40,218 bases of DNA, taken from positions 14,875 through 55,092 of the forward strand of contig PLGF01000035.1 of the NCBI GenBank assembly GCA_003138485.1, read 5' to 3'. The stretch is from Verrucomicrobiales bacterium. Lineage in GTDB: Bacteria; Verrucomicrobiota; Verrucomicrobiia; Limisphaerales; Palsa-1400. How positions within the stretch are numbered: position 1 is the stretch's first letter; every line of letters starts with the position of its first letter. The translations under genes and the position numbers were made by a program. Shown here piece after piece: positions 206-27,790 of this stretch. The notes below the pieces were generated by a model that worked only from the letters and a program-made list of their open reading frames with translations, was not told the origin of the DNA and made no database searches.

Positions 206-481
206 TCACGCGTTTGCCTCCTCCCGGAGCACGAAACCCACGCCGCGAACGGTATGAATGAGATTGATGCCCTGGCCTTCATTGAGAATCTCGATGCCGG
301 ATCGGCCCGGCAGCATCCAATCAAGCACCACAAGATCGAATGTTTCGGCGTTGAGGAGGAAAAAGCCCTCCTCGCCGGTATGCGCCGTGGCAGTGGAGAA
401 TCCGCCGCGCTCTAGGCCCGATGCAAGCGCGGCGGCGGTCTTCAGGTCGTCTTCGACAATCAATAAACGCGCGGCAGCCAT
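206..481 (-). pseudogene. OmpR-family response regulator with internal deletion
   Basis: The 91-residue product starts as a normal receiver domain: acidic pair in IVEDD at residues 8-12, then the phospho-acceptor region VVLDWMLPG around residue 54. After residue 66 it jumps straight to INLIHTVRGVGF, which is the C-terminal wing of an OmpR/PhoB winged-helix DNA-binding domain. A complete family member is about 220-230 residues, so roughly 130-140 residues are missing: the end of the receiver, the linker and most of the DNA-binding domain. The reading frame stays open across the junction. Loss of the receiver's last strands and the recognition helix makes regulator function unlikely. The start chosen is the ATG at 481, directly before the receiver. 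No kinase partner lies in the window; it may lie beyond base 1. An assembly collapse or a true deletion would look the same here. Confidence 0.75.
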
Positions 482-552
482 GAGGAGGAGTCTGCCAGAA
501 CGCCTCTCCCGGAGCGAGCCGCAAACGGTTGAAAATTCAGGATCGGGTGTGA

Positions 553-582
553 GACAGAATTCTTCGGGTCTCGACCTCACCC
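553..582 (+). repeat. Partial copy of the 23981 repeat arm
   Basis: These 30 bases match 23985-24014 at about 28 of 30 positions by eye (GACAGAATTCTTCGGG followed by TCGACCTCACCC). It is a solo end of the MITE-like element described at 23981-24182. The surrounding gap 482-770 holds no convincing gene. Confidence 0.6.
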
Positions 583-770
583 GGAGTGAGCAGGTCTTGC
601 TTTGTCTTGATTCCGAGGACCCTTTCGCCTCATTATGGCTGTGCCGGGAGAAGGTGATGGCGGAACTCGGTCTGGACAAACCGTCAAAGGATATGAGTCG
701 TATATGGAAGGGCGGGTGCTGAAGTTGGGAATGAGGGCCGGGCGGACTGAATGGGAGACAAAATGGGGAG

Positions 771-1703
771 ATGGGGCATTACAGCCGGGTGCGCAAGGCG
801 GTCAGCCGGATGGCTCGAAGGCCCGGCCGGAAGCTGGAGAAGAACATCTACGCCAGCGGGGAATTGACCCTGGCGGCAACTGTTTCCAAAATGGAAACAG
901 TTCAAATCGAGGGTGGCCACGAAACTTCGCGCGAAATCGAGTTTTACAATCTGGACGCGGTGATTGCCGTGGGATACCGGGTCAATTCCATCAAGGCGAC
1001 ACATTTTCGGATTTGGGCGACAAACACCTTGCGGGAATACATCGTCAAGGGGTTTGTCCTCAACGATGAACTGCTCAAGAACGGGCGGCAATTCGGCAAG
1101 GATTATTTCGACGAGTTGTTGGAAAGAATCCGGGAAATCCGGGCCAGCGAGCGGCGGGCTTATCAGAAAATCGCGGACGTGTTTGAGCTATGCAGCAGCG
1201 ATTATCGGGGCAACAGCGAGGAAACGCAGTTGTTTTGCAAAATCGTCCAAAACCAGCTTCACTTTGCGACCACCGGCAAAACCGCAGCCGAGATCATTCA
1301 TCAGCGGGTGGGCAGCGAGAAGCCGTTCATGGGGCTGACGACGTGGAAGAATTCGCCCCAAGGCAAGATTCTCAAGAGCGATGTCACCATAGCGAAGAAT
1401 TATCTGAACCAAGTTGAAGTTTCACAACTAAACCGGCTGGTGGGCATGTTTATTGACTACGCGGAGGTGCGGGCGTTGAACCGCCAGGTGATGACGATGA
1501 AGGACTGGTTGAAGCAGGTCGAAAAGTTTCTGAACTACACGGATCAGCAGGTGCTTCGTCATGCCGGGGAAATCTCGCACGAAATGGCGGTGGCGAGGGC
1601 GCATGGGGAATTCGAGAAATACCGGGTAAAACAGGACGTGGAGTACATCTCGGACTTCGACAAGGCATTGGCGCGATACTTGAAAGGGAAAGACGAACCA
1701 TGA
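771..1703 (+). CDS. RhuM family protein, N-terminus missing or divergent
   Basis: The 310-residue product carries the conserved RhuM core: NIYASGEL near residue 25, then EFYNLDAVIAVGYRVNS, FRIWATNTLREYIVKGF and the long helical C-terminal half. RhuM proteins are found in pathogenicity islands, prophages and next to restriction or helicase genes; their biochemical role is not settled. Usual members have a further 40-60 N-terminal residues forming a helix-turn-helix-like segment before NIY.EGEL. Here that segment is replaced by a basic, low-complexity stretch (residues 1-22), and no upstream frame restores it. The ATG at 771 is the first in-frame Met, so either the gene is 5'-truncated or its start region has drifted. 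The stop overlaps the ATG of a gene remnant at 1700, an arrangement typical of a former operon. Confidence 0.75.
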   Translation: MGHYSRVRKAVSRMARRPGRKLEKNIYASGELTLAATVSKMETVQIEGGHETSREIEFYNLDAVIAVGYRVNSIKATHFRIWATNTLREYIVKGFVLNDELLKNGRQFGKDYFDELLERIREIRASERRAYQKIADVFELCSSDYRGNSEETQLFCKIVQNQLHFATTGKTAAEIIHQRVGSEKPFMGLTTWKNSPQGKILKSDVTIAKNYLNQVEVSQLNRLVGMFIDYAEVRALNRQVMTMKDWLKQVEKFLNYTDQQVLRHAGEISHEMAVARAHGEFEKYRVKQDVEYISDFDKALARYLKGKDEP

Positions 1704-2030: not shown

Positions 2031-2876
2031 TCAGGTTTTCGCTTCAATGCGGCCCATCGCCAGGAGGATGCCCTGGAGGAGGGCGTGGGGGTTGGGCGGG
2101 CAGCCGGGGATGTAAACATCGACGGGGATGACGGAATCAACGCCGCCGCAGGTGGCGTAGTTGCGGCCGAAGATGCCGCCGCTGCAACCACACGCGCCGA
2201 CGGCCACGACCAGGCGCGGTTCGGGCATGGCGTCGCGGGTCTTGCGCAGGGCCAGTTCCATGTTGCGGGTCACCGGGCCGGTCACCAGCAGCAGGTCGGC
2301 GTGGCGCGGGGAGGCGACGAAGTGGACGCCGAAGCGTTCAATGTCATAGACGGGGCTGTTCAGGCCGTTGATTTCCACTTCGCAGCCGTTGCAGGAGCCG
2401 GCATCGACTTCGCGGATGTGCAGGGAACGGCCAAACATTTTGGCGGCGCGTTCCTGGATTTGCCGGCCAATGGAATCGAGGGCTTCGGGTTGACCGGGGG
2501 CAGGGGCGGGCGGCGAAATGAGCCGCTCGTGCGCGCCGTCGGGGCCGAGGGCGTAAGTGGCGGTGGCGACCAACGCGTCGCGGCGGGAGGCGGCGCATTG
2601 GCAATCGTGTGTCATGCGAATGGCCGGGTCGGCGTCGGCGCAGAGGCCGCAGAAAGTGCAGGCGGCCAGATCGAGGCGGGCGACGCGCCGGCCGGCGTGG
2701 TCGTGGTGGGAGAGGGCGCCGGTGGGGCAGGCGGCGGCGGCGGGGCGGGCGTCCCTCCAGTGGTCCCAATCAATGGCGGGGCGGCCGCGGGCGGGGCTGG
2801 AAGAGGAAGGGGGCGGGGCGGGATAGGGCGTGGTGACGACGCCCGTCTTCAAACTATGCCGAATGATGTCAAACAT
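2031..2876 (-). CDS. hyfI: HyfI/NuoB-like small subunit fused to a one-cluster ferredoxin domain (Ehr-type)
   Basis: The 281-residue protein has two parts. Residues 155-281 are a NuoB/HyfI-type subunit with the N2-cluster cysteines (SCNGC at 161-165, GACGCSGG near 228-234, PGCPPNP at 258-263) and the conserved GLNSPVYDIERFG region. Residues 1-100 derive from a 2x[4Fe-4S] ferredoxin but keep ligands for only one cluster: C50 of CPTGA, and C73, C76 and C79 of CTFCGLC. The first three cysteines of motif 1 and the CP cysteine of motif 2 (now D83 in ADADP) are gone. In such ferredoxins those four bind the other cluster, so one cluster has been lost cleanly. In E. coli Hyf the ferredoxin (HyfH) and HyfI are separate proteins. 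It is the last gene of the operon, 2 bases after hyfG. It should carry electrons on the cytoplasmic side of the complex. Confidence 0.9.
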   Translation of the reverse strand: MFDIIRHSLKTGVVTTPYPAPPPSSSSPARGRPAIDWDHWRDARPAAAACPTGALSHHDHAGRRVARLDLAACTFCGLCADADPAIRMTHDCQCAASRRDALVATATYALGPDGAHERLISPPAPAPGQPEALDSIGRQIQERAAKMFGRSLHIREVDAGSCNGCEVEINGLNSPVYDIERFGVHFVASPRHADLLLVTGPVTRNMELALRKTRDAMPEPRLVVAVGACGCSGGIFGRNYATCGGVDSVIPVDVYIPGCPPNPHALLQGILLAMGRIEAKT

Positions 2877-2878
2877 AA

Positions 2879-4474
2879 TCAGCGGTCGGTTCCGGAATAG
2901 GAGAGGTTGAAGCTCTTATTGACAACCGGGAAATCCGGGATGATGTTGCCCAGGATGGCCTCGGCCAGCGCCGGCCAGTTTTGGAGCGACGGGTCCTTGA
3001 CCTTGCAGCGGGCCAGGCGGTTGCCCGGCGCGGTGTGGACCCAGTGGAAGATTTCGCCGCGCCAGCCTTCGACGTAGCCCAGCGCCGCGCGGTCCGGCGG
3101 CAGGTCGCCCAAATCCACCCGAATCCCGCCCGCGGGCAGTTTCTCAATCGTCTGGCGGATGATGCCCAAAGACTGGAAGATTTCCGCCCGGCGCACGACC
3201 AGGCGGCGGCGGGCGTCGCCTTCGGTGAAGACGGGCACGGTGAATTGCACCTGGTCGTAGAAGGCGTGGGGAACGTCGCGGCGCAGGTCGTGGTCGAAGC
3301 CGGAGGCGCGGCCCGCAAGGCCAACGACGCCCAGATCGCGGGCGACCTCGGGCGTGAGGACGCCGGTGGTTTCCAGGCGGTCGCGGAGGCCGGAGTTATT
3401 GCGAATCAAACCGATCAACTGGACGAATTCCTTCTCGAACTCGTCGGCAAATTCGGCCAGGGCGCGGAGCTGGGGCGGGTCGAAGTCCAGGCGTGCGCCG
3501 CCCAGGCAGGCCATGCCGCGCAAGAGGCGGTTGCCGGTCAGGAGTTCATTCAAACACAACGCGCGCTCTTTGAGGCGCATGGCGTGCATGTTGGCGGTGA
3601 CGAAGGCGACGTCGGTGCAAATCGCGCCGATGTCGGCGACGTGGTTGTAGAGGCGCTCCAGTTCCAGGCAGAGAGTGCGGAGGGCGCGGGCGCGCGGCGG
3701 CGGCTGGACTCCGGCGGCGCGCTCGACGGCGTGGCAGAAGGCGGTGGCGTGGGCGAAGCTGGAGTCGCCGGAGATGCTCTCCGCCAGCCGCACGCAATGA
3801 GCGACGGGTATGCTTTCAAAAAGCTTCTCAATGCCTTTATGGACGTAGAACAGGCGGAGTTGCAAGTAGAGCACCGGCTCGCCCGCGACGCTGAAAAGGA
3901 AATGGCCCGGTTCGATGATGCCGGCGTGGACGGGGCCAACGGGCACTTGGAAGACGCCTTCGCCCTCGACCTCGCGGAACTTGTGCCGCGGACCGGTGAA
4001 GGGCGGGAGCTGGGCGCGCAGGTTGAAATCTTTGCGGAGGGGATACACCTCCGGCCAATCGTCGTGCAGGACGCAACGGCGGGGGTTGGGATGGCCCAGA
4101 AGAGAGATGCCGAACATGTCCTGGATTTCGCGCTCCTGCCAGTCCACGCCGTGGACGGCGTTGGTGACGGAGGGCAATTCCGGGTGGTCCGGCGGCAGGG
4201 CAACGCGGACCAGGACGAATCCATGCGCCCAATCCAGGACGTAGAGGTAATAAACGAAGTAAGCGTTGTGCTCCGTCCGGGCGTCCTCGGCGAAGACGCC
4301 CACCAGGCGTCCATTGTGGATTTTGTGGAACGCGGAGCAGAGGGCGCCGGCCAATTCGACTTTGGCGTGCAGGTGCAGCTCGTTGGGCTGCGTCGCCGGA
4401 GCCCATTTGAGTTGGGCGCCGAAGCGGCGCGTCAATTCCTCGAGCACGGATTCCAATTCGGGGATCAAGTTCAT
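2879..4474 (-). CDS. hyfG: HyfG/HycE-like large subunit lacking all NiFe ligands (Ehr-type)
   Basis: The 531-residue protein is a fusion, as in HycE/HyfG. Residues 1-150 are NuoC-like (WQEREIQDMFGI at 112-123, YPLRKDF at 144-150); residues 175-531 are NuoD/large-subunit-like (VGPVHAGIIEPGHF, then LERLYNHVADIGAI). In group 4 [NiFe]-hydrogenases, nickel is held by CGIC in motif L1 and DPCxxC in motif L2. L1 here reads SISGDSSFAH (233-242), with S235 and S238 at the cysteine positions. L2 reads NLSYSGTDR at the C-terminus (523-531), with S525 and G528 there. No C-terminal extension for maturation protease cleavage follows. The subunit therefore cannot bind a NiFe centre, as in energy-converting hydrogenase-related (Ehr) complexes and complex I. 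It probably still couples redox change at the small-subunit cluster to the membrane arm. Its start overlaps the upstream stop by 4 bases. Confidence 0.93.
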   Translation of the reverse strand: MNLIPELESVLEELTRRFGAQLKWAPATQPNELHLHAKVELAGALCSAFHKIHNGRLVGVFAEDARTEHNAYFVYYLYVLDWAHGFVLVRVALPPDHPELPSVTNAVHGVDWQEREIQDMFGISLLGHPNPRRCVLHDDWPEVYPLRKDFNLRAQLPPFTGPRHKFREVEGEGVFQVPVGPVHAGIIEPGHFLFSVAGEPVLYLQLRLFYVHKGIEKLFESIPVAHCVRLAESISGDSSFAHATAFCHAVERAAGVQPPPRARALRTLCLELERLYNHVADIGAICTDVAFVTANMHAMRLKERALCLNELLTGNRLLRGMACLGGARLDFDPPQLRALAEFADEFEKEFVQLIGLIRNNSGLRDRLETTGVLTPEVARDLGVVGLAGRASGFDHDLRRDVPHAFYDQVQFTVPVFTEGDARRRLVVRRAEIFQSLGIIRQTIEKLPAGGIRVDLGDLPPDRAALGYVEGWRGEIFHWVHTAPGNRLARCKVKDPSLQNWPALAEAILGNIIPDFPVVNKSFNLSYSGTDR

Positions 4475-5943
4475 GGAGAGCCTCCCATCAATTGCGCGGC
4501 GCGCCGGGCGAGTTCAAAGACCGGCTGGGGCAGGGCCACGCCGAGCGCGACAACCGGCACCGCGACCAGGAGCATCGCGCCGAATTTCCACGGGCATTCC
4601 AGGCCGGGGGCGGCCTGGTGGGCGGGCTGGCCGAGAACCATCTTGGAAACTCCCACCAGGAAGCCGGCGAAAATCATGACGATGCCCGCGACGCACATTC
4701 CCGCCGCCCATATATGATGCGCGGCGGCCGCGGCGCTCAGGGCCGTGAACTCGCTTTGAAACAGGCTGAAGGGCGGCACGCCCGTGACGGCGAAGGCGGC
4801 CACCAGAAACAGCCCGCCGGTCCAGGGCAGGACGTGGATGACGCCGGTGACTTTGCGGAGATAGGGCGTGCCGAAATGCTGCTGCACGTTGCCGGCGCAA
4901 AAGAACAGCAGCGGTTTGGCCACAGCGTGAAAAATCATGTGAAGCACCGCGCCAAACGCACCGAGCCTGCCGCCGAAGCCCAGCGCCGCCACCATGATGC
5001 CCGCATGGTCAATACTCGAATAGGCCAGGAGACGCCGGAAGTTTCGCTGCACGAGCACAAAGGGCGCGGCGACGAGGATGGAGGCGACTCCGAAAAGGAT
5101 GAGCAGCGAGCCGGTGTATTGGTGGCCCAGGCATTGGTCCGCCAACGCGGAGAAACGCATGATACCGTAAATCGCGCAGTTGATGAAGCCGGCGCCCAGG
5201 AGCGCCGCGGACGGGACGGGCGCCTCGGCATAGGCGTCGGGTTTCCATGTGTGCATGGGAACCAGGCCGGCCTTGGTGCCGTAGCCGACGAGCACCATGA
5301 CGAATGCCAGGCGCATGGCGGCGGGCTGGAATTTGTCCGCCACTTTGATGAGCACCGACCAGTTGAACCCGCCAGCGGTGTGGTCTCCGATGACCTGCAC
5401 TGCGGAGAAGTAGGTCAACACGGTTCCGAACAGGGCCAGGGCGATGCCAGCGCTGCCAATGATGATGTATTTCCAGGCCGCCTCAAGGGAACTTTTTTGG
5501 TTGTAGAAACGAACCAGCAGGACCGAGGCGAGCGTGGTGGACTCGATGGCCACCCACATCAGACCCAGGTTGTTGACCAGCGGCACGGCCATCATGGCGC
5601 CGACAAATATCGGCGTGAGCACGTAATAGCGGTGAAGCAGGCGCGCATTGATTTTTCCCGCCCGCTCTTCCTCGCGCAGATAGCCGACGGCGTAAAGACC
5701 GCAGGCCAGCGTGACGAACGCGGTCAATCCGGCGACCAGTGCGCTGAGGGCATCAGCTCGCAGGAAACCGCCGAACGCCTCGACGACGCGATGAGCGAGA
5801 ACTTCCGCGCCCAAGACGGTGGCGAGAATGGCAAGGAGTGCGAAGGCCAGCAGGTTGAGCCGCTCCAGCACAACGCGCTCCCGCACCGGCCAGCAGAGCA
5901 GCCCGGTGAGCAAGGGGACAAGAATCAGGAGCGTCAGAAGCAT
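4471..5943 (-). CDS. hyfF: Second HyfF-like antiporter-type membrane subunit
   Basis: This 490-residue polytopic protein belongs to the Mrp/NuoL-M-N antiporter-like family (proton_antipo_M domain). The ion-channel residues are kept: E134 in MWVAIEST (TM5) and K224 in VGYGTKAGLVPMHTW (TM7). The QRNFRRLLAYSSIDHAG and HAVAKPLLFFCAGN signatures of the HyfF/HycC type are clear. It aligns along its length with the preceding gene product (5934-7421) and looks like a duplicate of it, filling the place that HyfD or HyfF has in E. coli. Its start overlaps that gene's end by 10 bases and its end overlaps hyfG by 4, so translation is probably coupled. Confidence 0.92.
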   Translation of the reverse strand: MLLTLLILVPLLTGLLCWPVRERVVLERLNLLAFALLAILATVLGAEVLAHRVVEAFGGFLRADALSALVAGLTAFVTLACGLYAVGYLREEERAGKINARLLHRYYVLTPIFVGAMMAVPLVNNLGLMWVAIESTTLASVLLVRFYNQKSSLEAAWKYIIIGSAGIALALFGTVLTYFSAVQVIGDHTAGGFNWSVLIKVADKFQPAAMRLAFVMVLVGYGTKAGLVPMHTWKPDAYAEAPVPSAALLGAGFINCAIYGIMRFSALADQCLGHQYTGSLLILFGVASILVAAPFVLVQRNFRRLLAYSSIDHAGIMVAALGFGGRLGAFGAVLHMIFHAVAKPLLFFCAGNVQQHFGTPYLRKVTGVIHVLPWTGGLFLVAAFAVTGVPPFSLFQSEFTALSAAAAAHHIWAAGMCVAGIVMIFAGFLVGVSKMVLGQPAHQAAPGLECPWKFGAMLLVAVPVVALGVALPQPVFELARRAAQLMGGSP

Positions 5944-7421
5944 GGCACCCCGCGAATGATGCAGGCGGCTTGTTCCATGAGTTGGCGCAGGGAACCGGGC
6001 AGCCAGAATGTCAACAACAGCAACGCCCCCAGCGGCAGGCTCATCGCCGCCATGTTGCCCGCCGAAAGGGTCTCGCGCGGGCGCGTGGCCCCGGCCGGGC
6101 CAAGCAAAAGTCTCGAAATCTTGTCAAGCAGGCCGCAGAAGACGAAGATGAGAGCCGTCAGCATCACGATGGCGACCCATGCGTGGCGCGAGGTGAAGCC
6201 GCCCGCAATCACCGTCAATTCGCTCACAAACAGCCCGAATGGGGGAAGGCCGCTGACGGCGACGGCGGCCAGTCCCAGGCAGAGGGCGGTGACGGGCATG
6301 GTTCGCGCCAGGCCGCCGCCCAAGCGCTGAAAGGCCAGAGTGTGAAAGTGCTGGTGGACGTTGCCGGCGGCGAAGAAGAGCACGGGTTTGGCCAGGGCGT
6401 GGTAGCCCATGTGGAGCATCGCGCCGAAAACCGTCAGAGGCGCGTTCAGGCCGATGGCGGCGCAAATCAGGCCGATGTGTTCGAGGCTGGAATAAGCGAG
6501 CATGCGCTTGAGATTCCTCTGCACGAGAATGAAAGGCCCGGCCAGCAGCATGGAAAAGAGGCCAAAGCCCAGCAGCAGGTGGCGGCTGAAACCGGAGCCC
6601 AGGCAGGCGGTGGCCAGGATGTGAAAGCGGAGCAGGGCATAGAGGGCGATTTTCAGGGAGACGCCCGAGAGCATCGCGCTGGTCGGGGAGGGCGCTTCGC
6701 TGTGGGCGTCTGGCAGCCAGGTGTGCATGGGGGCCAGGCCGGCCTTGGCGCCGTAGCCGATGAGTACGAAGATGAAGGCCAGCGCCATGAGATGGTGATC
6801 CAATTGCGGCGCCATGGCCAGGAGACGCGACCAGTTGAAACTGGGCAGGGTTTCTCCGCCCGTTTTGCCCACCGCCGCCGCGTAGGTGAAGATGGTGCCG
6901 AAGAGCGCGAGCACCAGACCCAATCCGCCCAGGATGACATATTTCCACGCCGCTTCGAGCGAAGTGCGCTGGTTGTAAAGGGCGACCAGCAGCACCGAAG
7001 ACATGGCCACGCCTTCCACCGCGATCCACATGACGCCCAGGCTGTTGGCCAGCACCACCAACAACATGCCGGTGGCAAAGAACGGCGTGAGCACGTAAAA
7101 CTCGCGAAAACGCCGCTCGCTTACGACGCCATTGGCCAGGTCGCGGCGGAAGTACTGAACCGCATAAATCGAGGTGGCCAGCGACACCGCCGCGATCAGC
7201 AGCACCATCCACGCGCTCAGGGCGTCGGCCCGAAGGAACTCGCCCCACTCGGTCAACGCCGTCCCCTTCCTCCCCACGACGGTTTGGCACAGCTTGACTC
7301 CAAGGGCCAGCACGGCGGCAAATCCCGCGATGTTCAGCCATTCCAGCAGCGGCCGGGGCCGGACGAAGAGGCAAGCCAGCCCGACGAGGAACGGCACGCA
7401 GAGGATGGAAGTCAGCAGCAT
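5934..7421 (-). CDS. hyfF: HyfF-like antiporter-type membrane subunit
   Basis: This 495-residue membrane protein is an antiporter-like subunit of the Ehr complex. Conserved E136 in MWIAVEGVAMSS and K226 in IGYGAKAGLAPMHTW occupy the positions used for proton movement in NuoL/M/N. Further HyfF marks are WLPDAHSEAPSP, QRNLKRMLAYSSLEHIG and HALAKPVLFFAAGN. About 13-14 hydrophobic segments can be counted. It starts 4 bases after hyfE and runs 10 bases into the second hyfF copy. Expected role: a proton or sodium translocating module of the inner membrane arm. Confidence 0.92.
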   Translation of the reverse strand: MLLTSILCVPFLVGLACLFVRPRPLLEWLNIAGFAAVLALGVKLCQTVVGRKGTALTEWGEFLRADALSAWMVLLIAAVSLATSIYAVQYFRRDLANGVVSERRFREFYVLTPFFATGMLLVVLANSLGVMWIAVEGVAMSSVLLVALYNQRTSLEAAWKYVILGGLGLVLALFGTIFTYAAAVGKTGGETLPSFNWSRLLAMAPQLDHHLMALAFIFVLIGYGAKAGLAPMHTWLPDAHSEAPSPTSAMLSGVSLKIALYALLRFHILATACLGSGFSRHLLLGFGLFSMLLAGPFILVQRNLKRMLAYSSLEHIGLICAAIGLNAPLTVFGAMLHMGYHALAKPVLFFAAGNVHQHFHTLAFQRLGGGLARTMPVTALCLGLAAVAVSGLPPFGLFVSELTVIAGGFTSRHAWVAIVMLTALIFVFCGLLDKISRLLLGPAGATRPRETLSAGNMAAMSLPLGALLLLTFWLPGSLRQLMEQAACIIRGVPCF

Positions 7422-8096: not shown

Positions 8097-9041
8097 CTAT
8101 CGAAACAGAAAGGTGGAGACCAGCGCCAGCATGGCGAGGATGAAGGCCGCGCTCAACAAGTCCGGGACGCGAAACAGGCGCAGCTTGGCGTTGGTGGTTT
8201 CCACCACCACCACGGCGCCGGCCAGCACGGCCAGTTTCACAATGAGGAACAGCAGGCCCAGGGCAAAGGCCGCCGGCGTTGTGTGCGCCGCAAGGCCGGC
8301 CGGGAAAAAGATGTTGGCCAGCAGCGCCATCAGGACAAGTTGCTTGATGGAAGCGCCCCACTCGATGAGTGCCAGATACCGGCCTGAATACTCCAGAAGC
8401 ATGGCCTCGTGGATCATGGTCAACTCCAGGTGCGTGGCCGGGTTGTCAATGGGCAGGCGGCCTGTTTCGGCCAGCAGCACGATGAACATGGCGGCGAACG
8501 CCAGCGCGTGGGAGGGATCGAGGAACTTCCAGCCCGGCATCTGGCTGGCCAGGACGATCTGACTCAGATTGGTGGAACCGGCGGCAATGGCCACCGTGAA
8601 AATGGCGAGCATCATCGCCGGTTCGGCGATGGCCGAGAGGGTCATTTCCCGGCTGCTGCCCATGCCGCCGAACGCGCTGGCCGGATCAAGTCCCCCCAGC
8701 GCCAGGAAGAACCGGCCCAGTCCCAGAAGGCCGATGAGCGCCAGGGCGCCGCCCAAGAGGCTCATGGGCGCCAGCGCTGTGACCATCGGCGTCATCAGCC
8801 CGGCGGAGAGCGCTGTCAAGAATAGCACATAGGGCGTGATCGAAAAAACCCACGATGCGTGCTCGGAGATCACCATGTCCTTGCGCAGGAATTTGGCGAG
8901 GTCAAAGTAAGGCTGCCAGACGCGCGGGCCGCGGCGATTTTGCAGCTTGGCCTTCCAGTTCCTGATGAGGCCCGTCAGGAGCGGCGAGAGCGCCAGCAGA
9001 AGGGCCGTCTGCGCAAGAATGGCTGTCAGATCGAGGTTCAT
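8097..9041 (-). CDS. hyfC: HyfC/NuoH-like membrane anchor subunit
   Basis: The 314-residue protein is the NuoH/HyfC homologue that connects the soluble arm to the membrane arm. Visible marks are QNRRGPRVWQPYFDLAKF (residues 35-52), ETGRLPIDNPATHLELTMIH around 195-215, and EYSGRYLALIEW. These are the charged cytoplasmic loops that form the quinone- or cluster-facing pocket in complex I relatives. About eight transmembrane helices are present. The start overlaps the hyfB stop by 4 bases (ATGA). It ends with TAG, which is therefore an ordinary stop codon in this genome. Confidence 0.93.
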   Translation of the reverse strand: MNLDLTAILAQTALLLALSPLLTGLIRNWKAKLQNRRGPRVWQPYFDLAKFLRKDMVISEHASWVFSITPYVLFLTALSAGLMTPMVTALAPMSLLGGALALIGLLGLGRFFLALGGLDPASAFGGMGSSREMTLSAIAEPAMMLAIFTVAIAAGSTNLSQIVLASQMPGWKFLDPSHALAFAAMFIVLLAETGRLPIDNPATHLELTMIHEAMLLEYSGRYLALIEWGASIKQLVLMALLANIFFPAGLAAHTTPAAFALGLLFLIVKLAVLAGAVVVVETTNAKLRLFRVPDLLSAAFILAMLALVSTFLFR

Positions 9042-11080
9042 AAGGCAAAGATCAGGAGCAGCAGGAGGGTGGCGAAGATGTAGAGCAGGTAGGCGTGAAT
9101 GCTGCCGGCCTGGAGGGCGCGAATGCGGCGGGACACCCGCAGAATCAGGATGCGCAGCGGCCGGTAAAGACGTCGCACAAAAACCTCCTCAACATGGCTC
9201 TCGAAACGCAGTTTCCGGGCAAAGTGCGGCGAGAAGTCGTATTCGCGCTGCACGTCGCGCCGCGGGCGGAACAGAGCCTTGAAGATCATGCGGATGGGTT
9301 TGGAAAAGCCGGTGGCGGTGTATTCCATTTGGGGCGTCAGCCCGCGCTGGCCGCAGTCCCAGGTTGGGCCGCGCCGGGTTTTTGCCTTCCGGCCAAAGAC
9401 CAGCCACAAGCCCAGCGGGATGGGCAGCAGGCACGCGGCCATGAGCACCATGCCGACGGTCGAGATGGTGCCCGCCTTCCCGGAGAGGGCTGATAGCACC
9501 AGGCCGTTGTTGAGGCTGACGCGCGGCCCGAGTTCCAGGCCGGTGAGTTGCTGGGTGACCGGATCGAGCAACCGGATAAGCTGGGTCGGAAACAATCCCA
9601 GCGCCACACAGGCCAGCGTGAGCAGGGCCATGCCAAGGCGCATGGAAGGGCCAACCTCATGCGCGCGGGCGGCGGGTTCACTGCGGGGTTGGGCCAGGAA
9701 TGTGATGCCGAACGCTTTCACAAAACATGCCGCCGCCAGGGTGCCTGTCAGGGCCAGCATCGCGCCGCTCAAGGGAAACATCAGCCGCATCAGGCTCTCG
9801 GTGGTGCCGAAACCCTGAAGGAGCGCCTGGTAGGTGAGCCACTCGCTGACGAAGCCGTTGAGCGGGGGCAGCGCGGAGATGGCCACCGCGCCGACGAGGA
9901 AAAACATCGCGGTGTCCGGCATGCGTTTGGCCAGCCCGCCCATTTCCTCCATGTTGCGGGTGTGGGTGGCGTGGAGCACGGAGCCCGCGCCCATGAAGAG
10001 CAGCCCCTTGAAGGAGGCGTGGTTGATCGTGTGGTAAAGTCCGGCCACCAAACCCAGGGCGGCCAGCAGGGGATGGCCGGAGTGGAGAAAGAGCAGGGCG
10101 GCTCCCAAACCCATCAGTATGATGCCGATATTTTCGATGCTGTGATAGGCCAGCAGGCGCTTGAGGTCGTGTTCCATCAGCGCGTAAAGGACGCCCAGCA
10201 CCGCGGAGACCGTGCCGGCGGTCAGGACGGTCACGCCCCACCAGAGCGGCGGCGGCCCCATGAAATCGAACAGCACGCGGATCAACCCATAGATGCCGCA
10301 CTTGATAATCACGCCGGAGAGGAGCGCCGAGACGTTGCTGGGCGCGACTGGATGCGCGACCGGCAGCCATATATGCAACGGCACAATGCCCGCCTTGATG
10401 CCGAAGCCGAGCAGGAACAGGATGAACGCCGCGTCCCGCTTGCCGGCCGCCATTTTCGCTCCGATATGGTGCAGGCTGGCGAAATTGTAATCGCCGGAGG
10501 CCTGGTAGAGCAGGAGAAAACCCAGGATGATGCATCCCGCGTCGATGTGGGCCATGATGAAGTAGAGCACGCCGGCGTCGCGCGTTTCGGGTTGCTCATG
10601 CTCGAAGCTTACCAGGCAATAGGCCGTCAACGCCGTCAGTTCCCAGGAGATGAGAAAGAGCCAGATGTTGTCCGCCACGAAAAGCAATGTTGTGGCCAGC
10701 AGCAGCGCGTTGAAAAACGCGCCCAGCACGCCGACGTTCTTGCGTCCGAAGTAACTTTTCGCATACCCGATTGAATAAATCGAAAGCGCCAAGCCGAGCA
10801 GGGAGACAATGACAAGAAAGAACGCGCCCAGCGGGTCGGGCCGGATGCTCAACTGGATGTAGGGGACCAGGGGTGGCAGCAGCGTGATTTGAGGCCCCGC
10901 CGCGCCGGCGGACAGAAAGAGTAGGGCCGCCAGCAGGCCGATCAGAGCGGAGAGGGCCGCCGCGCCGAAGGAGAAAGCGTTGGCCAGTTTTTCGCGGCGC
11001 ATGAACAGCAACCCGCCCACGGCCCCGATGCCGTAGCCGCACAGAGCCAAAACAAGCAGCGTGTCAGGTTGAAGGTTCAT
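9038..11080 (-). CDS. hyfB: HyfB-like antiporter-type membrane subunit
   Basis: The 680-residue product is a HyfB-type subunit: an antiporter-like core (E147 in SWELTALTAYCL, K229 in GFGIKAGIVPLHIW, WLPVAHPVAPSNVSALL) followed by an extension typical of HyfB/HycC. It has a loop with WDCGQRGLTPQMEYTATGF and a final helix. The large third ORF in this frame extends upstream to 11383, but that part overlaps the EIIA gene and is non-coding. The ATG at 11080 (MNLQPDTLLVLALC) begins directly with the first helix. It follows the EIIA gene by 32 bases and is the first membrane-arm gene of the operon. Confidence 0.92.
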   Translation of the reverse strand: MNLQPDTLLVLALCGYGIGAVGGLLFMRREKLANAFSFGAAALSALIGLLAALLFLSAGAAGPQITLLPPLVPYIQLSIRPDPLGAFFLVIVSLLGLALSIYSIGYAKSYFGRKNVGVLGAFFNALLLATTLLFVADNIWLFLISWELTALTAYCLVSFEHEQPETRDAGVLYFIMAHIDAGCIILGFLLLYQASGDYNFASLHHIGAKMAAGKRDAAFILFLLGFGIKAGIVPLHIWLPVAHPVAPSNVSALLSGVIIKCGIYGLIRVLFDFMGPPPLWWGVTVLTAGTVSAVLGVLYALMEHDLKRLLAYHSIENIGIILMGLGAALLFLHSGHPLLAALGLVAGLYHTINHASFKGLLFMGAGSVLHATHTRNMEEMGGLAKRMPDTAMFFLVGAVAISALPPLNGFVSEWLTYQALLQGFGTTESLMRLMFPLSGAMLALTGTLAAACFVKAFGITFLAQPRSEPAARAHEVGPSMRLGMALLTLACVALGLFPTQLIRLLDPVTQQLTGLELGPRVSLNNGLVLSALSGKAGTISTVGMVLMAACLLPIPLGLWLVFGRKAKTRRGPTWDCGQRGLTPQMEYTATGFSKPIRMIFKALFRPRRDVQREYDFSPHFARKLRFESHVEEVFVRRLYRPLRILILRVSRRIRALQAGSIHAYLLYIFATLLLLLIFAL

Positions 11081-11112: not shown

Positions 11113-11610
11113 TCAGGCGACGGCTCTCTTGAGCAGATCGGGCTTCGCCTCGGATCGCAGGGTGATGCGTTGAAGCACTTCGAGCATCCGGGCGGCGTCC
11201 GGGGCGGCGTGGAGTTTTTCCACCAGACGGGTGTCTTCGGCCAGGCGCGCCAGGCCGGAATTGAGTTGCAAGTACTGTGTCGCATCGGTCGCCGGAACCG
11301 CGATGAGAAAGACCATGCGGACCGGGCGCGTGGCTTTGGCGCTCCACCCCAGCGGACCGTCGCCGCGGCCGAGGGCGAAACAAACCTCCTTCAATCCCGG
11401 CACGCGCGCGTGCGGAAAAGCCATTCCGGCCTCCATGTCGGTGTTGACGAGGAATTCCCTGTTGAGTGCCGCGTGGTAAAAGGGAAGCAAGTCCGGCACG
11501 CGCTTCTCGCGCTGCATCGCCTGGCTAAGCTCCTGGATGACGCCGGCAACGTCCCGGCCGCGCAAGCACGGCACAATCAGTCCCAGACTGGTAAAGTCGG
11601 CCAGAGTCAT
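11113..11610 (-). CDS. PTS EIIA domain protein (fructose/nitrogen type)
   Basis: The 165-residue protein is a single EIIA type-2 domain. The phosphorylatable histidine is H67 in the conserved AFPHARV motif, followed by the usual strand ALGRGDGPLGW and VFLIAVPA. No EIIB or EIIC domain follows, so it is regulatory rather than sugar-transporting; single EIIA proteins of the Ntr type report PTS phosphorylation state to transporters, kinases or sigma-54-linked systems. It sits 25 bases after the zinc-ribbon gene and 32 bases before hyfB, on the same strand, which places it in the Ehr operon. A role in controlling the ion-pumping complex or its expression is an inference from position. Confidence 0.85.
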   Translation of the reverse strand: MTLADFTSLGLIVPCLRGRDVAGVIQELSQAMQREKRVPDLLPFYHAALNREFLVNTDMEAGMAFPHARVPGLKEVCFALGRGDGPLGWSAKATRPVRMVFLIAVPATDATQYLQLNSGLARLAEDTRLVEKLHAAPDAARMLEVLQRITLRSEAKPDLLKRAVA

Positions 11611-11635: not shown

Positions 11636-12031
11636 CTAAGAGGCTTGCGCGACCGCTCTTTGGCGGGTTCCCGCGCCGCGTGCTTTCACGGGCGCTTTCC
11701 TGGCGGGCGGGGCCTCGATCACGGGGAGCAGTTCGCTGTCCGGCAGGTAAAGATAGCGTCCGCAGTTGTCGCAGATGTGAACTTCGTCCGTGTAAGCCAG
11801 ACTGGCCTTGGTCCCGGAACTGATCTGCAAATGACATTCGGTGCAGACGCCGTGAACAGCCCTGGCCACGCCTTTTTTGCCGCGCGCGATGAGGCGGTCG
11901 AAGTGGGCGAGAATGGGCGCGGGCACTTTTTCGCGCAGTTTCAGGATTTCCGCTTCGTCCTCAAGGGACAGAGCAATGGCTTGCAATTGGAGTTTCTGCA
12001 AATCGAGCATGACCTGTATCATTTGTTTCAT
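11636..12031 (-). CDS. C4-type zinc-ribbon protein heading the Ehr operon
   Basis: The 131-residue protein has a helical N-terminal part (residues 1-55) and a zinc ribbon formed by C63, C66, C87 and C90 (CTEC, then CDNC), as in the zf-RING_7/C4 zinc-ribbon family. Those family members usually have a longer coiled coil (about 230 residues), so this is a short version. The C-terminal 30 residues are Ala/Pro/Arg-rich. The start is uncertain: ATG at 12031 is chosen, but ATG at 12010 would leave a 22-base leader from the predicted sigma-54 transcript start near 12033. Longer frames upstream would span the promoter and are not favoured. Function is unknown; nucleic-acid or protein binding is plausible. 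Confidence 0.7.
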   Translation of the reverse strand: MKQMIQVMLDLQKLQLQAIALSLEDEAEILKLREKVPAPILAHFDRLIARGKKGVARAVHGVCTECHLQISSGTKASLAYTDEVHICDNCGRYLYLPDSELLPVIEAPPARKAPVKARGAGTRQRAVAQAS

Positions 12032-12043
12032 CGCGCCATACAA

Positions 12044-12059
12044 TGCAGGCGCCGTGCCA
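12044..12059 (-). promoter_or_regulatory. Sigma-54 (RpoN) promoter of the Ehr operon
   Basis: The minus strand reads C-TGGCACG-GCGC-CTGCA-T. Against the RpoN consensus YTGGCACGrNNNTTGCW only the first T of the -12 element differs. GG and GC dinucleotides are at exact -25/-24 and -13/-12 spacing. The predicted transcript start is near 12033, immediately before the zinc-ribbon gene. A GAFTGA-containing sigma-54 activator is encoded just upstream on the same strand, which supports use of this promoter. It was found by eye; no genome-wide background was calculated. Confidence 0.7.
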
Positions 12060-12157
12060 GAAAATGGGGTCCATGTTGTAAGTCGCTGGCGCAGAGACGG
12101 TTTGTGCGCGCAAATAGATCCAGCGCCGCGTCCGCCGCGCCCCTCATTGGCCGCCTT

Positions 12158-12172
12158 GTGCAATCTTTGCAC
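12158..12172. promoter_or_regulatory. Candidate upstream activator site
   Basis: GTGCAA-TCT-TTGCAC is a perfect 6-bp inverted repeat centred about 130 bases upstream of the predicted sigma-54 start, within the usual distance of NtrC-family enhancer sites. The half-element TTGTGCAA recurs at 12187-12194, and its reverse complement TTGCACAA lies at 12396-12403. Binding by the neighbouring activator is inferred only from position. Confidence 0.35.
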
Positions 12173-17740: not shown

Positions 17741-19924
17741 CTAAACCAGTCCGGCCCATTTGCGGCCCACCCAATAAAGAGTCAGCAAAGCCAGGAGAAG
17801 GCCGCCCCAGGCGGGTTCGCTCCAGAGACGGATGCGTTTGTCCACCGGCTTGGGATCGGGCAGGAGCGAAATCTGGCGCACCATTTTGTCGAGGTCGGCC
17901 GCCGGGAAAACCGCCCCGCGCGTGATCGCGGCGATCTCGTTGAGGACCTGCGCATTGACAGGCTGGCCCAACTTTTCGATCAGGGGCCTGGCGACCAGCA
18001 GTTCCGTCGTCAATTGCCTGCCGTCAGGTTCGGAGGCGACTTCGATTCTGTATTTGCCCGCTTCCCGCGCGGTGAAGCCGGACTTGAAGGCGCCCCATCC
18101 ACCCTCGACTTGCGCGAAGTCCAATCGTTCCATCCGGCCGGAGGGGGCGGTGACCATGCCGGCGACCGGGCCTTTGTCAATAGGAAATCCAGAGGTGTCG
18201 AGGATGGTGGTTTGCAGGAAGACAAAGTCGCCCGCGGCGGGCGTCTCCGGGCTGTAGGCCAGGCGGATGCCGTCCTTCTCGGAGAGGTGCCGCTGGTGGG
18301 CCATCCAGCGGACGACCTGGCCCCAGAAGCGGTAATGGAATTTGTCCTCGACGCCGCGGCGCCAGCGCCAGGCGCTGTCCGTGCCCAGGAAGAGAACCTT
18401 GCCGTTGCCGGCGGCGCGGGTGGCGAGCAGGGGCAGGCGGCCCCACTGATTGCGCATGGTGGAATGCACCGCCAGCACTTCCGAGCCGGGCCGGCTTTTC
18501 TCGACTGCCGCGGACCAGAAGAAGCCCGGCAATTGCTTCCACAGCTCGTCATTTTTCGATTCGTCGGAATCGAAGCGTGTCAGCCAATGCCGTTTGCCGG
18601 CGGTGGTCAGGGTCAGTTGCGATTCATTTTCCAGGGCAACGCCGCCCGGTTTGGAAGCATCCAGCTCGACCGGATACAAATCCTTGAGCGGACCGTTCAG
18701 GAGCGTGTTCTCGCGCCCGCGCCGGCCCGGCACAAAAACCAGGCCGCTGCCCTGCTCCTCAACCAACCCCTTGAGCAGCGCCGCGTCGGTGTCCGTTAAT
18801 TCGCCGTCCCCCATTCCGACATCGCCCAGAAAAACGACATCGTAAGGAGCCAGGGCTTGCTTGGTGTCGGGGAAGGCGGAGAGGTAGCCGGCGCCCTGGC
18901 CCGGCCCCAAATCGGGATGCCAGAGCAAAGAACTCAGCTCGACGCCCGGATCGCGCGCGAGGGCGTTGCGCAAGTAGCGGTATTCCCAACGGGGCAGCGA
19001 ATCGACCACCAGCACCTTGAGCTTCTCGACCCGCACCGCCATGTGAAAGACGCTCTGATTGTTGTCCGCGATGGCTTCATCGGGTTCAACGGGGAGCTTG
19101 ACGGTGGCGGTGACATCGCCCGCCTGACGGGGCGACCAAAGAATGGCGTCCTCGACCTCGCCGTTGGGCGGGATAATGATCGGCTTGACAGCGGATTCCC
19201 CGAAATTGTCCGTGATGGACACGGCGGTTTTGACCTCGCGCGGGAGATGGCTGGAGACTTTGAAGGAAACGGCCATTTCCTCTCCCAAAAGTCCGTAAGC
19301 CGGGGCCGAAACCGTTTCCAAAATCAAGTCCGGCACCGGCGTCTCGCGTCCGACTGGCACGGCGAAGACGGGGATGTTCAGCTCTCGATACCGCGTGGCT
19401 GTTCCCAGGGGCGATTTGCCGAGGTTCCAATCGCCGTCGCTCAAGAGCAGGACGGATTTGAGGTTTTTGTAGCGGCGCAACGCGTCTTCCAGGGCAAGAT
19501 CGAGGTCGGTGCCGTTCAGGGCGTTTTCATTGGTTGAAGGCGCGGCGAAGGCGTCCAGGGAAATTTTGGCGCGAGCCTGCAAGGGCAGCCAGAACTGCCG
19601 CCTCATCTGGTGCTCCAGCCATTGCCGCCGGCTGATGACGCCGTTTGTGGCGGCCATGTCGCGCGTGTTCATGCTGTCCGAGGCGTCGGCCAGAATGGCG
19701 ATTTCCGGCAGCGCCGCCGGCGGCAAAGTCTTCACGTACTCGGGACGCAGCAAGGTCAGGGCAAGGAGGGAAACCAACACCAGACGCAATCCTTCCAGCC
19801 GCCCGGCGACGGAGCGATTGGCGGCGCGCCGCCAATTGGCCCAGCACAACCAGACCGCGACCGCCCAGAGCACCACGGTGGGAATAAGGACCGAAACGGG
19901 CGCGGCCAGGGAAAGACGGTTCAT
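17741..19924 (-). CDS. VWA-domain membrane protein, last gene of the MoxR cluster
   Basis: The 727-residue protein starts with two transmembrane helices (about 8-28 and 45-60), then a von Willebrand A domain with the MIDAS motif D80-A-S82-D-S84. A CARDB/Ig-like section and a GATase1-like section (VLVVDSLPRWEYRYLRNAL, YDVVFLGDVG) follow, and a final helix (LLLALLTLYWVG). It is the BatB/large-VWA type seen after BatA in MoxR-DUF58 operons of Verrucomicrobiota and Planctomycetota. Its start overlaps the BatA-like stop by 4 bases. Probable role: periplasmic or membrane metal-dependent protein interaction under MoxR control; the specific process is unknown. Confidence 0.88.
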   Translation of the reverse strand: MNRLSLAAPVSVLIPTVVLWAVAVWLCWANWRRAANRSVAGRLEGLRLVLVSLLALTLLRPEYVKTLPPAALPEIAILADASDSMNTRDMAATNGVISRRQWLEHQMRRQFWLPLQARAKISLDAFAAPSTNENALNGTDLDLALEDALRRYKNLKSVLLLSDGDWNLGKSPLGTATRYRELNIPVFAVPVGRETPVPDLILETVSAPAYGLLGEEMAVSFKVSSHLPREVKTAVSITDNFGESAVKPIIIPPNGEVEDAILWSPRQAGDVTATVKLPVEPDEAIADNNQSVFHMAVRVEKLKVLVVDSLPRWEYRYLRNALARDPGVELSSLLWHPDLGPGQGAGYLSAFPDTKQALAPYDVVFLGDVGMGDGELTDTDAALLKGLVEEQGSGLVFVPGRRGRENTLLNGPLKDLYPVELDASKPGGVALENESQLTLTTAGKRHWLTRFDSDESKNDELWKQLPGFFWSAAVEKSRPGSEVLAVHSTMRNQWGRLPLLATRAAGNGKVLFLGTDSAWRWRRGVEDKFHYRFWGQVVRWMAHQRHLSEKDGIRLAYSPETPAAGDFVFLQTTILDTSGFPIDKGPVAGMVTAPSGRMERLDFAQVEGGWGAFKSGFTAREAGKYRIEVASEPDGRQLTTELLVARPLIEKLGQPVNAQVLNEIAAITRGAVFPAADLDKMVRQISLLPDPKPVDKRIRLWSEPAWGGLLLALLTLYWVGRKWAGLV

Positions 19925-21915
19925 GCCCTTTGCTCCTGGCGGCGCGAGGTTTTCGAAGCCGGACGGGCCGCGTCCGCCCGGGGCCTGGCCGGCGGGAGAA
20001 TCAAGAATCCTTCCGCAATCAGGAGCATGAACATGGCAAAGGCGAAAAGCCGCCAGATTTCACCCTGGAAACGGCCCGCGCCGAAGGAGCGCTCCTGCCA
20101 TGTTTGCACCGGCAGACCGCCAAAAAGCTTCCGGGCTTCGTCGCTGTCAATCATTTCGGTATCATCCTCCGCCGGCGGGCGGTTGACGGCGATGAGGCGG
20201 CTGTCCGAGCGATACACTCCGGCCTGCCAGCGAATGTCCCTGGGCGCGATGGAATCGACCGAAACCCACTGGCGCTGCTGATCGGTCGCGCTCAACTCGC
20301 CGCAATTGACGGTGGAAACTTGTTGCAACCGGCGGCCGCCGGCCAGCAGCAGCCGTTGCACCATCGGCACGAGCACCGGCCCTTCGCCCAGGCTGGACCA
20401 GTCCGACTGCGGCCGCGCGGCGCAAAAATAAACCTCGCCCATGCCGGCGCTTTGCCGCGTCAGAAAAGCCGCGCCGTCCTCGAAGGCGGCCATGACATTC
20501 TTGGGGCCTGTGATGGCCTGCCGTCGCGCGAAGGAGGTTTGGGAGAGCGGCAGGCTGAAATGTTCGTCGCTTCGGGCCAGCGGCCCTTCGTCCTCGTTCC
20601 AGCGCACGATGCGAAAGCCCTCCGGCTCCGCGGAAGCCTGGGTATCGCCCCATCCCGCGCCGTTGAACCGCCGCCCGTCCGCGTGGCCTGGCGGAAAGAA
20701 GATCACGACGCCCCCCTCGGCTGCAAACGACTGCACGCGCTGCGCGTCCGCCGCGTCGGGCAACGGCGCCTGCCAGATGAGCAGTGAGACGCCGTCGAGA
20801 ACGGCTTTGGAGAACTCCAGATTCGACACCCATTGCGCCGGCTCGTTGCCGCGGGCCGCGCCGGCGTATCGCAACGCGCGCGCCTCTTCCTTCTCCGCGC
20901 TCACCGTCAGGGCTTGCATCGGCGTGTCCGGCCCATAGACGAAATAAGTCGAATTGTCTCGTTCGTTGGCGTCCGCCGGCAGGCTGAAGCTTCCCCAGCC
21001 CCCCTCGCGGTGCGCGCCCAAGTCAATCCTGCGCCGCCAGCGCAAAGCCGGCCCGTCCAGCGCGACCTCCGTCTCCGAGCGGCTGCCGTCCAGGGTGAGA
21101 GTGACCGGCAGAGAGGCCGGGGCGTTGCGATTGCGCGCGACGTCCAGCACCACTTGCAACTCGGACGCCGCGCCGAGCGGACGGCGCACCAGTTCCTGGA
21201 TGGAAATGGAGGCGTTGGCTTCCGGGGGCTGATTGAGTTCGAGCAGGCGGAAGCGGACCTTTTGCGACAGGCCGCCGAATTGGGCGAGGATGCTTTTCCA
21301 CCGGGCATCCTCCGGCATCCAGTTGCTGCGCTGGTTGTCGGACGCGATCCAGATTTCGGATGCGCCCGCGCGGTTTTCGACCAGCCAGTCGAAGGCGGCC
21401 CGGAGCATCGCGGGCAGGTCGGCGGCGGTATCGGTCGGCCCGGTGACGGGCAATTGAGCCAGGCTGGAGGCGCGGGCGATTTCTTGCGGGGCCCGCGTGG
21501 CGCTGTCAATAAGGACGAGATGGCTGGTTTCCTCGAATTCCCGCGCCGCCTGCGTCAACATCTGGATGGCCTGCTGGCGCTTGCTGATGCCGCTCGCGCG
21601 CGTTTCCATGCTCGCCGAGCGGTCCAGCAGGATGACGATGGCGTCCGGCGCGGGCGAAAGCGCCCAACCGACCCAGCCGCCCGCCAGGGGCCGCGCCAGG
21701 AACAGAATGAGCGCGGCCACTGCAAGGACGCGGCAGGCCAGGAGGAGGAACTGGCGCAGCTTGGTGTGCGCGGTCGAACTGCGCGTGGCCGAGAGCAGGA
21801 ACCGCATGGCCGCCCACGGTTTGGGGCGATGCCGCAGGCGATTGAGCAGGTGGATGAGGATCGGGGCAAGCACCAGCGGCAAACCCAGCAGCACGTATGG
21901 TTGCAGAAACGTCAT
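19921..21915 (-). CDS. BatA-like membrane protein with VWA domain
   Basis: The 664-residue protein opens with the BatA N-terminal domain (MTFLQPYVLLGLPLVLAPIL, HLLNRLRHRPKPWAAMRFL) and two helices. A VWA domain follows with MIDAS D98-R-S100-A-S102, then a long extracytoplasmic part, and a C-terminal helix (LFAFAMFMLLIAEGFLIL). It follows the DUF58 gene by 34 bases and overlaps the VWA gene. Proteins of this type are needed for stress tolerance or envelope integrity in other phyla; the role here is inferred from the cluster only. Confidence 0.88.
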   Translation of the reverse strand: MTFLQPYVLLGLPLVLAPILIHLLNRLRHRPKPWAAMRFLLSATRSSTAHTKLRQFLLLACRVLAVAALILFLARPLAGGWVGWALSPAPDAIVILLDRSASMETRASGISKRQQAIQMLTQAAREFEETSHLVLIDSATRAPQEIARASSLAQLPVTGPTDTAADLPAMLRAAFDWLVENRAGASEIWIASDNQRSNWMPEDARWKSILAQFGGLSQKVRFRLLELNQPPEANASISIQELVRRPLGAASELQVVLDVARNRNAPASLPVTLTLDGSRSETEVALDGPALRWRRRIDLGAHREGGWGSFSLPADANERDNSTYFVYGPDTPMQALTVSAEKEEARALRYAGAARGNEPAQWVSNLEFSKAVLDGVSLLIWQAPLPDAADAQRVQSFAAEGGVVIFFPPGHADGRRFNGAGWGDTQASAEPEGFRIVRWNEDEGPLARSDEHFSLPLSQTSFARRQAITGPKNVMAAFEDGAAFLTRQSAGMGEVYFCAARPQSDWSSLGEGPVLVPMVQRLLLAGGRRLQQVSTVNCGELSATDQQRQWVSVDSIAPRDIRWQAGVYRSDSRLIAVNRPPAEDDTEMIDSDEARKLFGGLPVQTWQERSFGAGRFQGEIWRLFAFAMFMLLIAEGFLILPPARPRADAARPASKTSRRQEQRA

Positions 21916-21949
21916 GGGCTAAACGTGGCCGGGCATTTGCCTTGCGCTC

Positions 21950-27788: not shown

Positions 27789-27790
27789 CA

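Follow-up and report, generated by a model that had tools for sequence, protein, structure and literature searches.

An Ehr-type complex with a predicted nickel-free pocket encoded in a Verrucomicrobiales genome

Gene organization of the locus

The stretch of DNA analysed here (40,218 nt; hereafter, the window) comes from a Verrucomicrobiales bacterium (GCA_003138485.1, contig PLGF01000035.1, positions 14,875-55,092 of the forward strand). The minus strand of the window carries, from position 11080 down to 2031, seven tightly packed genes in the order hyfB-C-E-F-F-G-I-like, preceded on the same strand by genes for an EIIA-type protein and a zinc-ribbon protein. The features, listed in the direction of transcription, are as follows.

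11636..12172, minus strand: C4-type zinc-ribbon protein (Zn_ribbon_9), start approximate, 25 bp upstream of the EIIA gene
11113..11610, minus strand: PTS_EIIA_2 domain protein, 165 aa, with a PHAR phospho-His motif (H67), 32 bp upstream of hyfB
9038..11080, minus strand: HyfB-like antiporter-like subunit, start taken as the ATG at 11080, scoring above the NCBIfam cut-off for HyfB, with the pump residues conserved
8097..9041, minus strand: HyfC/NuoH-like membrane anchor, 314 aa
7426..8094, minus strand: HyfE-like subunit with a NuoK-like domain, the ATG at 8094 chosen as the start
5934..7421, minus strand: HyfF-like antiporter-like subunit F1, 495 aa, pump residues E136, K226 and K345
4471..5943, minus strand: HyfF-like antiporter-like subunit F2, 490 aa, 45% identical to F1, with the pump Glu/Lys conserved
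2879..4474, minus strand: HyfG/HycE-like large subunit, fused NuoC and NuoD types, 531 aa, four [NiFe] cysteines replaced, E188 kept, C-terminus at TDR
2031..2876, minus strand: small subunit, 281 aa, N-terminal NuoI/HycF-like ferredoxin domain fused to a NuoB/HycG-like domain, with CNGC, GAC and PGC proximal-cluster ligands

The seven genes of the operon overlap slightly or lie within a few bases of one another, which is consistent with a single transcription unit. The TTG start at 11383 given for hyfB in the list of open reading frames was set aside because it overlaps the EIIA gene, and the plus-strand open reading frames over 2879-4474 were rejected as genes, being antisense frames only. 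No genes for an NADH module (NuoEFG) are present within or beside the operon.

The characteristic glutamate of TM5 and the lysines of TM7 and TM10 are conserved in all three antiporter-like subunits (HyfB, F1 and F2), and judging from these residues, the complex is likely to pump ions. F1 and F2 are old duplicates that form two clades. Several relatives retain just one of the two, and Vicinamibacteria carry two HyfB copies instead, so the number of pumps has changed more than once.

The large subunit, its relatives and the maturation genes

The closest solved relative of the large subunit is HycE of the Escherichia coli formate hydrogenlyase (7z0s_E, E=1e-84). The same chain is the best structural match of the AlphaFold2 model (TM 0.88, 33% identity over the structural alignment), in which pLDDT falls below 50 at residues 164-199 and at the end of the L2 motif (526-531), making the local geometry of the predicted pocket unreliable there. 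The L1 motif reads AESI-S235-GD-S238-SFAH, and the L2 motif FNL-S525-YS-G528-TDR-stop; the CGIC of HycE aligns with S235-G-D-S238 and its DPCYSC with N-L-S525-Y-S-G528. None of the four positions that hold the [NiFe] ligands is a cysteine (S235, S238, S525 and G528), and the loss of all four that the first-pass annotation had read from the sequence is thus borne out. Furthermore, the protein ends at TDR, the same point at which a mature group-4 hydrogenase is cleaved. HycE and HyfG continue for 32 residues beyond this point and a hydrogenase encoded elsewhere in the same genome for 40, and alignment with HycE and with this hydrogenase reveals no trace in the window protein of the maturation tail that is cut by an endopeptidase after nickel insertion. 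Having neither cysteine ligands nor a tail, the large subunit therefore lacks what nickel insertion needs.

A scan of species-level genomes yielded 55 relatives of this locus in independent, named assemblies, and all those in which the region is intact show a cysteine-less replacement of the same kind. In a 40-row alignment, from which plasmid-borne sequences were left out, S235, G236, D237, E188, N519, K520, S521, F522, S525, Y526, G528 and D530 are invariant across Verrucomicrobiota, Acidobacteriota and Bacillota; a near-identical motif was found on plasmids of Rhizobium, Rhodococcus, Methylocalor and Cupriavidus. Comparison of the large-subunit gene with five relatives gave dN/dS ratios of 0.10-0.21. 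Taken together, these sequence comparisons indicate that the gene is under strong purifying selection and is neither an error nor a pseudogene; sequencing error as the source of the lost cysteines, which had been named as a way in which the claim could fall, is untenable.

We constructed a maximum-likelihood tree from the NuoD-type part of the large subunit, leaving out the L1 and L2 columns so that the trait of cysteine loss does not itself make the tree. The window protein falls into a clade of 46 cysteine-less proteins (support 100/100, stem 1.61) that is separate from HycE and HyfG, from two cysteine-bearing group-4 hydrogenases that this genome encodes and from NuoD of complex I, and that includes proteins from Verrucomicrobiota, Acidobacteriota and Bacillota along with plasmid-encoded ones from Rhizobium, Rhodococcus, Methylocalor and Cupriavidus metallidurans. 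Relatives are present in the laboratory strains Anaerobacterium chartisolvens DSM 27016 and C. metallidurans CH34. The plasmid operons of Rhizobium, Rhodococcus and Cupriavidus, described as 'hydrogenase-4-like', share the cysteine-less signature with the window; those of Rhizobium and Rhodococcus differ in having one HyfF and a small subunit of about 177-180 aa that has no fused ferredoxin domain.

Group-4 relatives that lack the CxxC motifs have been published under the name of energy-converting hydrogenase-related (Ehr) complexes, and the accessible portions of these papers state their function as unknown or unproven. They have been described in Geobacter sulfurreducens (EhrA-EhrS/L, GSU0739-45; PMC7894505), Sulfobacillus (PMC4378227), comammox Nitrospira (PMC10284858), Margulisbacteria (PMC6349859), ammonia-oxidising archaea (PMC10432482) and CPR bacteria (PMC7304191); our literature search, within the accessible text of these sources, found a substrate, donor or activity reported for no Ehr. 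By this definition and by its gene composition, which we liken to that of the Geobacter complex, the window operon very probably encodes an Ehr complex, a member of a known family. The earlier proposal of an ion-translocating complex of this type is supported by the fully supported cysteine-less clade, the intact pump subunits and the absence of nickel ligands and tail. For the large subunit, a hydrogenase annotation ('formate hydrogenlyase/hydrogenase-4') is almost certainly wrong given the residue-level and phylogenetic evidence, as had been asserted at the outset. The E. coli formate hydrogenlyase-1 and hydrogenase-4 (HycE, HyfG) include the best solved relative and share the gene set HyfB, C, E, F, G and I, but the window operon lacks the four nickel cysteines, the tail, HyfA/HycB and FdhF, and its large subunit belongs to a separate clade.

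No second large subunit with CGIC/DPCxxC, which would have spoken for a hydrogenase, is encoded in the operon; the genome encodes two elsewhere, both in genuine group-4 [NiFe] hydrogenases. One, on contig C166 (G000:C166:79000-98000, L009), has CGICGC, DPCFSC and the 40-residue tail mentioned above, and the other, on contig C94 (G000:C94:80000-97000, L010), has CGICS/DPCISC. The C166 hydrogenase adjoins the HycI protease, an FdhF-like molybdoprotein and a pyruvate:ferredoxin-oxidoreductase-like gene, the latter two assigned by sequence appearance only. The first-pass annotation had expected an absence of hypABCDEF and hycI to support its claim, and this fails as a discriminator: HypD is encoded on contig C112 and HycI on C166, probably, in the simplest explanation, because the genome has the two genuine hydrogenases. 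Among the 31 sampled Ehr-bearing genomes of the order, nine lack HypD, four of these being 93-96% complete, which means that Ehr persists where the maturation machinery is absent. Nevertheless, 22/31 Ehr carriers have HypD, a higher proportion than the 103/293 of the whole sample. This suggests that Ehr and hydrogenases have an anaerobic lifestyle in common, if not a cofactor. Complex I is encoded in the window genome too, alongside the real hydrogenases, which counts against an obvious physiological need for Ehr.

Electron input and neighbouring genes

In two-cluster ferredoxins, the ligands of the two clusters are supplied by cysteines 1-3 and 8 and by cysteines 5-7 and 4, respectively. The ferredoxin domain of the small subunit is predicted to retain one [4Fe-4S] cluster (C50, C73, C76 and C79). 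Of the two-cluster motif it has lost C1-C3 and C8, precisely the set of cysteines that ligates one of the clusters. Relatives from Verrucomicrobiota and Bryobacterales show the joint loss of these four, with C4 and C5-C7 kept, and in those from Clostridia and Vicinamibacteria, all eight are present. Such a loss of one cluster as a unit, with the other retained, is the expected outcome of selection for a functioning wire. The small subunit also keeps a CNGC motif with the spacing typical of hydrogenases (MBH) and two other proximal-cluster cysteines.

No gene for a dehydrogenase (of NADH, formate or another substrate) is linked to the operon in the window, and clustering of neighbours found none that recurs among the 55 relative loci, making a diffusible carrier such as ferredoxin the most economical candidate for the donor. 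We put ferredoxin as the donor at slightly short of even odds; the one-cluster domain could equally accept electrons from, or hand them to, another protein. A search with PF17147 (pyruvate:ferredoxin oxidoreductase) provided no discrimination of Ehr carriers, with matches in 281/293 genomes of the order and 14/14 controls.

Clustering of recurrent same-strand neighbours of the relatives' Ehr genes identified EIIA, the zinc-ribbon protein, SulP and ArsR. In 13 relatives, a gene for EIIA or for an HTH-EIIA fusion lies upstream of the Ehr operon in the same orientation, and the zinc-ribbon gene is a recurrent upstream neighbour as well. A transporter of the SulP (sulfate/bicarbonate-type) family is adjacent in seven relatives, in three different positions: directly before hyfB in L064, L066, L070 and L071, truncated in L098, and after the operon in L090 and L093. 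The window operon contains no SulP gene, and our literature search found no paper linking EIIA or SulP with Ehr. According to the accessible part of one study, unphosphorylated EIIA-Ntr (PtsN) binds and inhibits the K+/H+ antiporter YcgO in E. coli (PMC11808508); on this precedent, control of ion pumping by the upstream EIIA is plausible.

The relatives differ in other features of the locus. An ArsR-family regulator flanks the operon in Acidobacteriota (L101, L102, L106 and L091-L107). A second Ehr large/small pair of the AGDT/NLSYCG type, about 40% identical, is encoded in the same locus of at least eight relatives (L061, L065, L068, L072, L073, L075, L079 and L090); the L065-like loci contain two Ehr sets in tandem, and in L061, the set with the SGDS motif is flanked by an F-like gene on one side and by the second large/small pair on the other.

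Candidate mechanism and alternatives

We consider it most probable (roughly 60%, which like our other gradings is a judgement rather than a computed value) that the operon encodes an Ehr complex in which electrons pass from a donor through the fused ferredoxin domain and the proximal cluster to a small acceptor in a nickel-free pocket, driving the pumping of H+ or Na+. The donor would be a soluble, low-potential carrier, most likely reduced ferredoxin because no NADH or formate module is encoded, and would feed the fused ferredoxin domain. The acceptor would bind in the former [NiFe] pocket, formed by S235/D237/S238, N519-K520-S521 and S525-Y526, with E188 supplying protons, and the redox reaction would drive translocation by HyfB, F1 and F2. 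The EIIA-type protein encoded upstream probably tunes expression or activity with the phosphotransferase state of the cell. In this model, a conserved polar pocket without cysteines takes the place of the [NiFe] centre, and a new set of invariant residues (S/D/S, N-K-S and S-Y-G-D) is predicted to line it.

A more specific proposal, which we regard as tentative and rather unlikely as a whole, is that the clade from Verrucomicrobiota and Bryobacterales represents a distinct Ehr subtype, in which a one-cluster, ferredoxin-fused wire connects to a new redox pocket free of nickel (SGD...E188...NKS-SY-G-D), with an adjustable number of pumps (HyfB and one or two HyfF), in part of the clade with PTS EIIA control and co-operation with SulP, and often with the second Ehr (AGDT/NLSYCG) in the same locus. 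The published Ehr complexes of Geobacter, comammox Nitrospira, Sulfobacillus and Margulisbacteria resemble that of the window, as far as the accessible text describes them, in the HyfB/HyfE/NuoH/HyfF-like arm, the large and small subunits and the lack of CxxC in the large subunit, whereas the fused one-cluster ferredoxin, the duplicated HyfF and the EIIA gene (with SulP in some relatives) go unmentioned in that text. The one-cluster fused ferredoxin and the EIIA/SulP linkage are, on that portion of the Ehr literature, features specific to this lineage. If the distinct-subtype reading is true, the complex I superfamily would gain a new acceptor chemistry.

It is improbable that the complex is a short version of complex I that reduces quinone in the pocket, acting without an electron-input module as a ferredoxin:quinone oxidoreductase of the NDH-1 or Fpo kind. 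The best Pfam matches of the large subunit are Complex1_49kDa and 30kDa, the fold is shared, and its C-terminus falls where that of NuoD does; the complexes also share the superfamily (NuoB, NuoCD, NuoH, NuoK and NuoL/M/N), the fused NuoCD fold, the end of the chain at DR and the antiporter subunits. Complex I differs in having an NADH module. Against a quinone site, the quinone-binding residues H38 and Y87 of Thermus Nqo4 align with I187 and G236, both conserved here, the small subunit has the CxxC of hydrogenases rather than the adjacent cysteine pair of complex I (PMC7684303), and the tree sets the cysteine-less clade apart from NuoD. The statement made at the outset that complex I, too, lacks the nickel cysteines therefore stands as regards the cysteines, but the active site is not complex I-like, given that the quinone residues are absent as well.

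An equally improbable reading takes the operon for an EIIA-regulated ion-transport module that performs no catalysis at the old site, its hydrophilic arm being a redox sensor or gate, and that is possibly tied to the uptake of an anion (bicarbonate or sulfate) via SulP. The recurrence of EIIA and SulP genes next to the relatives' operons, the regulation of an antiporter by EIIA-Ntr in E. coli and the variable number of pumps on a constant arm are all compatible with such a module. On the other side, the ligands of the proximal and ferredoxin clusters are strictly kept, implying electron flow, the window operon is without SulP, and the minimal Ehr operons of Rhizobium and Rhodococcus have neither EIIA nor SulP annotated.

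Still lower is the probability of a formate-linked channel that, similar to formate hydrogenlyase, passes electrons from formate into the pump. In the accessible text of the respective papers, Ehr subunits of G. sulfurreducens are reported as more abundant on formate (PMC7894505), and a pairing of formate dehydrogenase with Ehr is proposed in Margulisbacteria (PMC6349859). Against this, no formate dehydrogenase or HycB-like subunit is encoded in the window operon or recurs among the 55 loci, the FdhF-like gene of the genome adjoins a real hydrogenase on C166, and a site devoid of nickel ligands cannot produce H2.

Very improbable is a reductase of sulfane sulfur (polysulfide) like the Pyrococcus MBS (6u8y), with the proximal cluster itself being catalytic. 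MBS belongs to the same superfamily and is a nickel-free, ferredoxin-driven ion pump that has also lost nickel ligands, its shortened loop removing one cysteine ligand to produce the catalytic proximal cluster, with one iron that has no cysteine (PMC7684303). The shortened loop, on which MBS activity depends, is absent from the small subunit of the window, where the motif has four cysteines and MBH spacing; MBS retains two of the four nickel cysteines and the large subunit described here none; and MBS has no equivalent of MbhL E21, whereas the position aligned with it here, as judged from the alignment boundaries, is the invariant E188. Finally, a cryptic or decaying [NiFe] hydrogenase is hardly credible: the hydrogenase fold, the EPGHF motif and the presence of HypD and HycI in the genome are set against the missing thiolate ligands and cleavable tail, the invariant replacement residues, the low dN/dS and the conservation of the complex also in genomes without HypD.

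Each of the three known acceptor chemistries (NiFe, complex I quinone and MBS cluster) is contradicted by at least one such residue-level test at this locus, which offers a small set of invariant pocket residues as targets for mutagenesis. The locus also shows that, in one lineage, the electron path into Ehr has been narrowed to a single ferredoxin cluster, and its context of EIIA and, in relatives, SulP, indicative of regulation and transport, points to ion homeostasis. Within the complex I superfamily, Ehr complexes are a widespread group of intact members, and the host of the window is a soil- or sediment-type bacterium with an intact Ehr operon under selection; automated annotation names such complexes hydrogenases, so predictions of H2 metabolism for soil and sediment bacteria are inflated.

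Several other genes of the window deserve mention. An open reading frame of the RhuM family (771-1703, plus strand) lies just past the 3' end of the Ehr operon and is adjoined by a short response-regulator-like fragment (206-679, minus strand). Genes for a MoxR AAA ATPase, a DUF58/VWA protein and BatA-domain proteins are encoded in a row at 19921-23909 (minus strand), a typical MoxR-VWA set. An ImuB-like Y-family polymerase is immediately followed by a DNA polymerase III alpha subunit (DnaE2-like) at 26319-30919 (plus strand), a pair of the mutasome type. A partial match to beta-carbonic anhydrase was found at 36842-37714 (minus strand; E=1e-8), covering positions 2-74 of 156.
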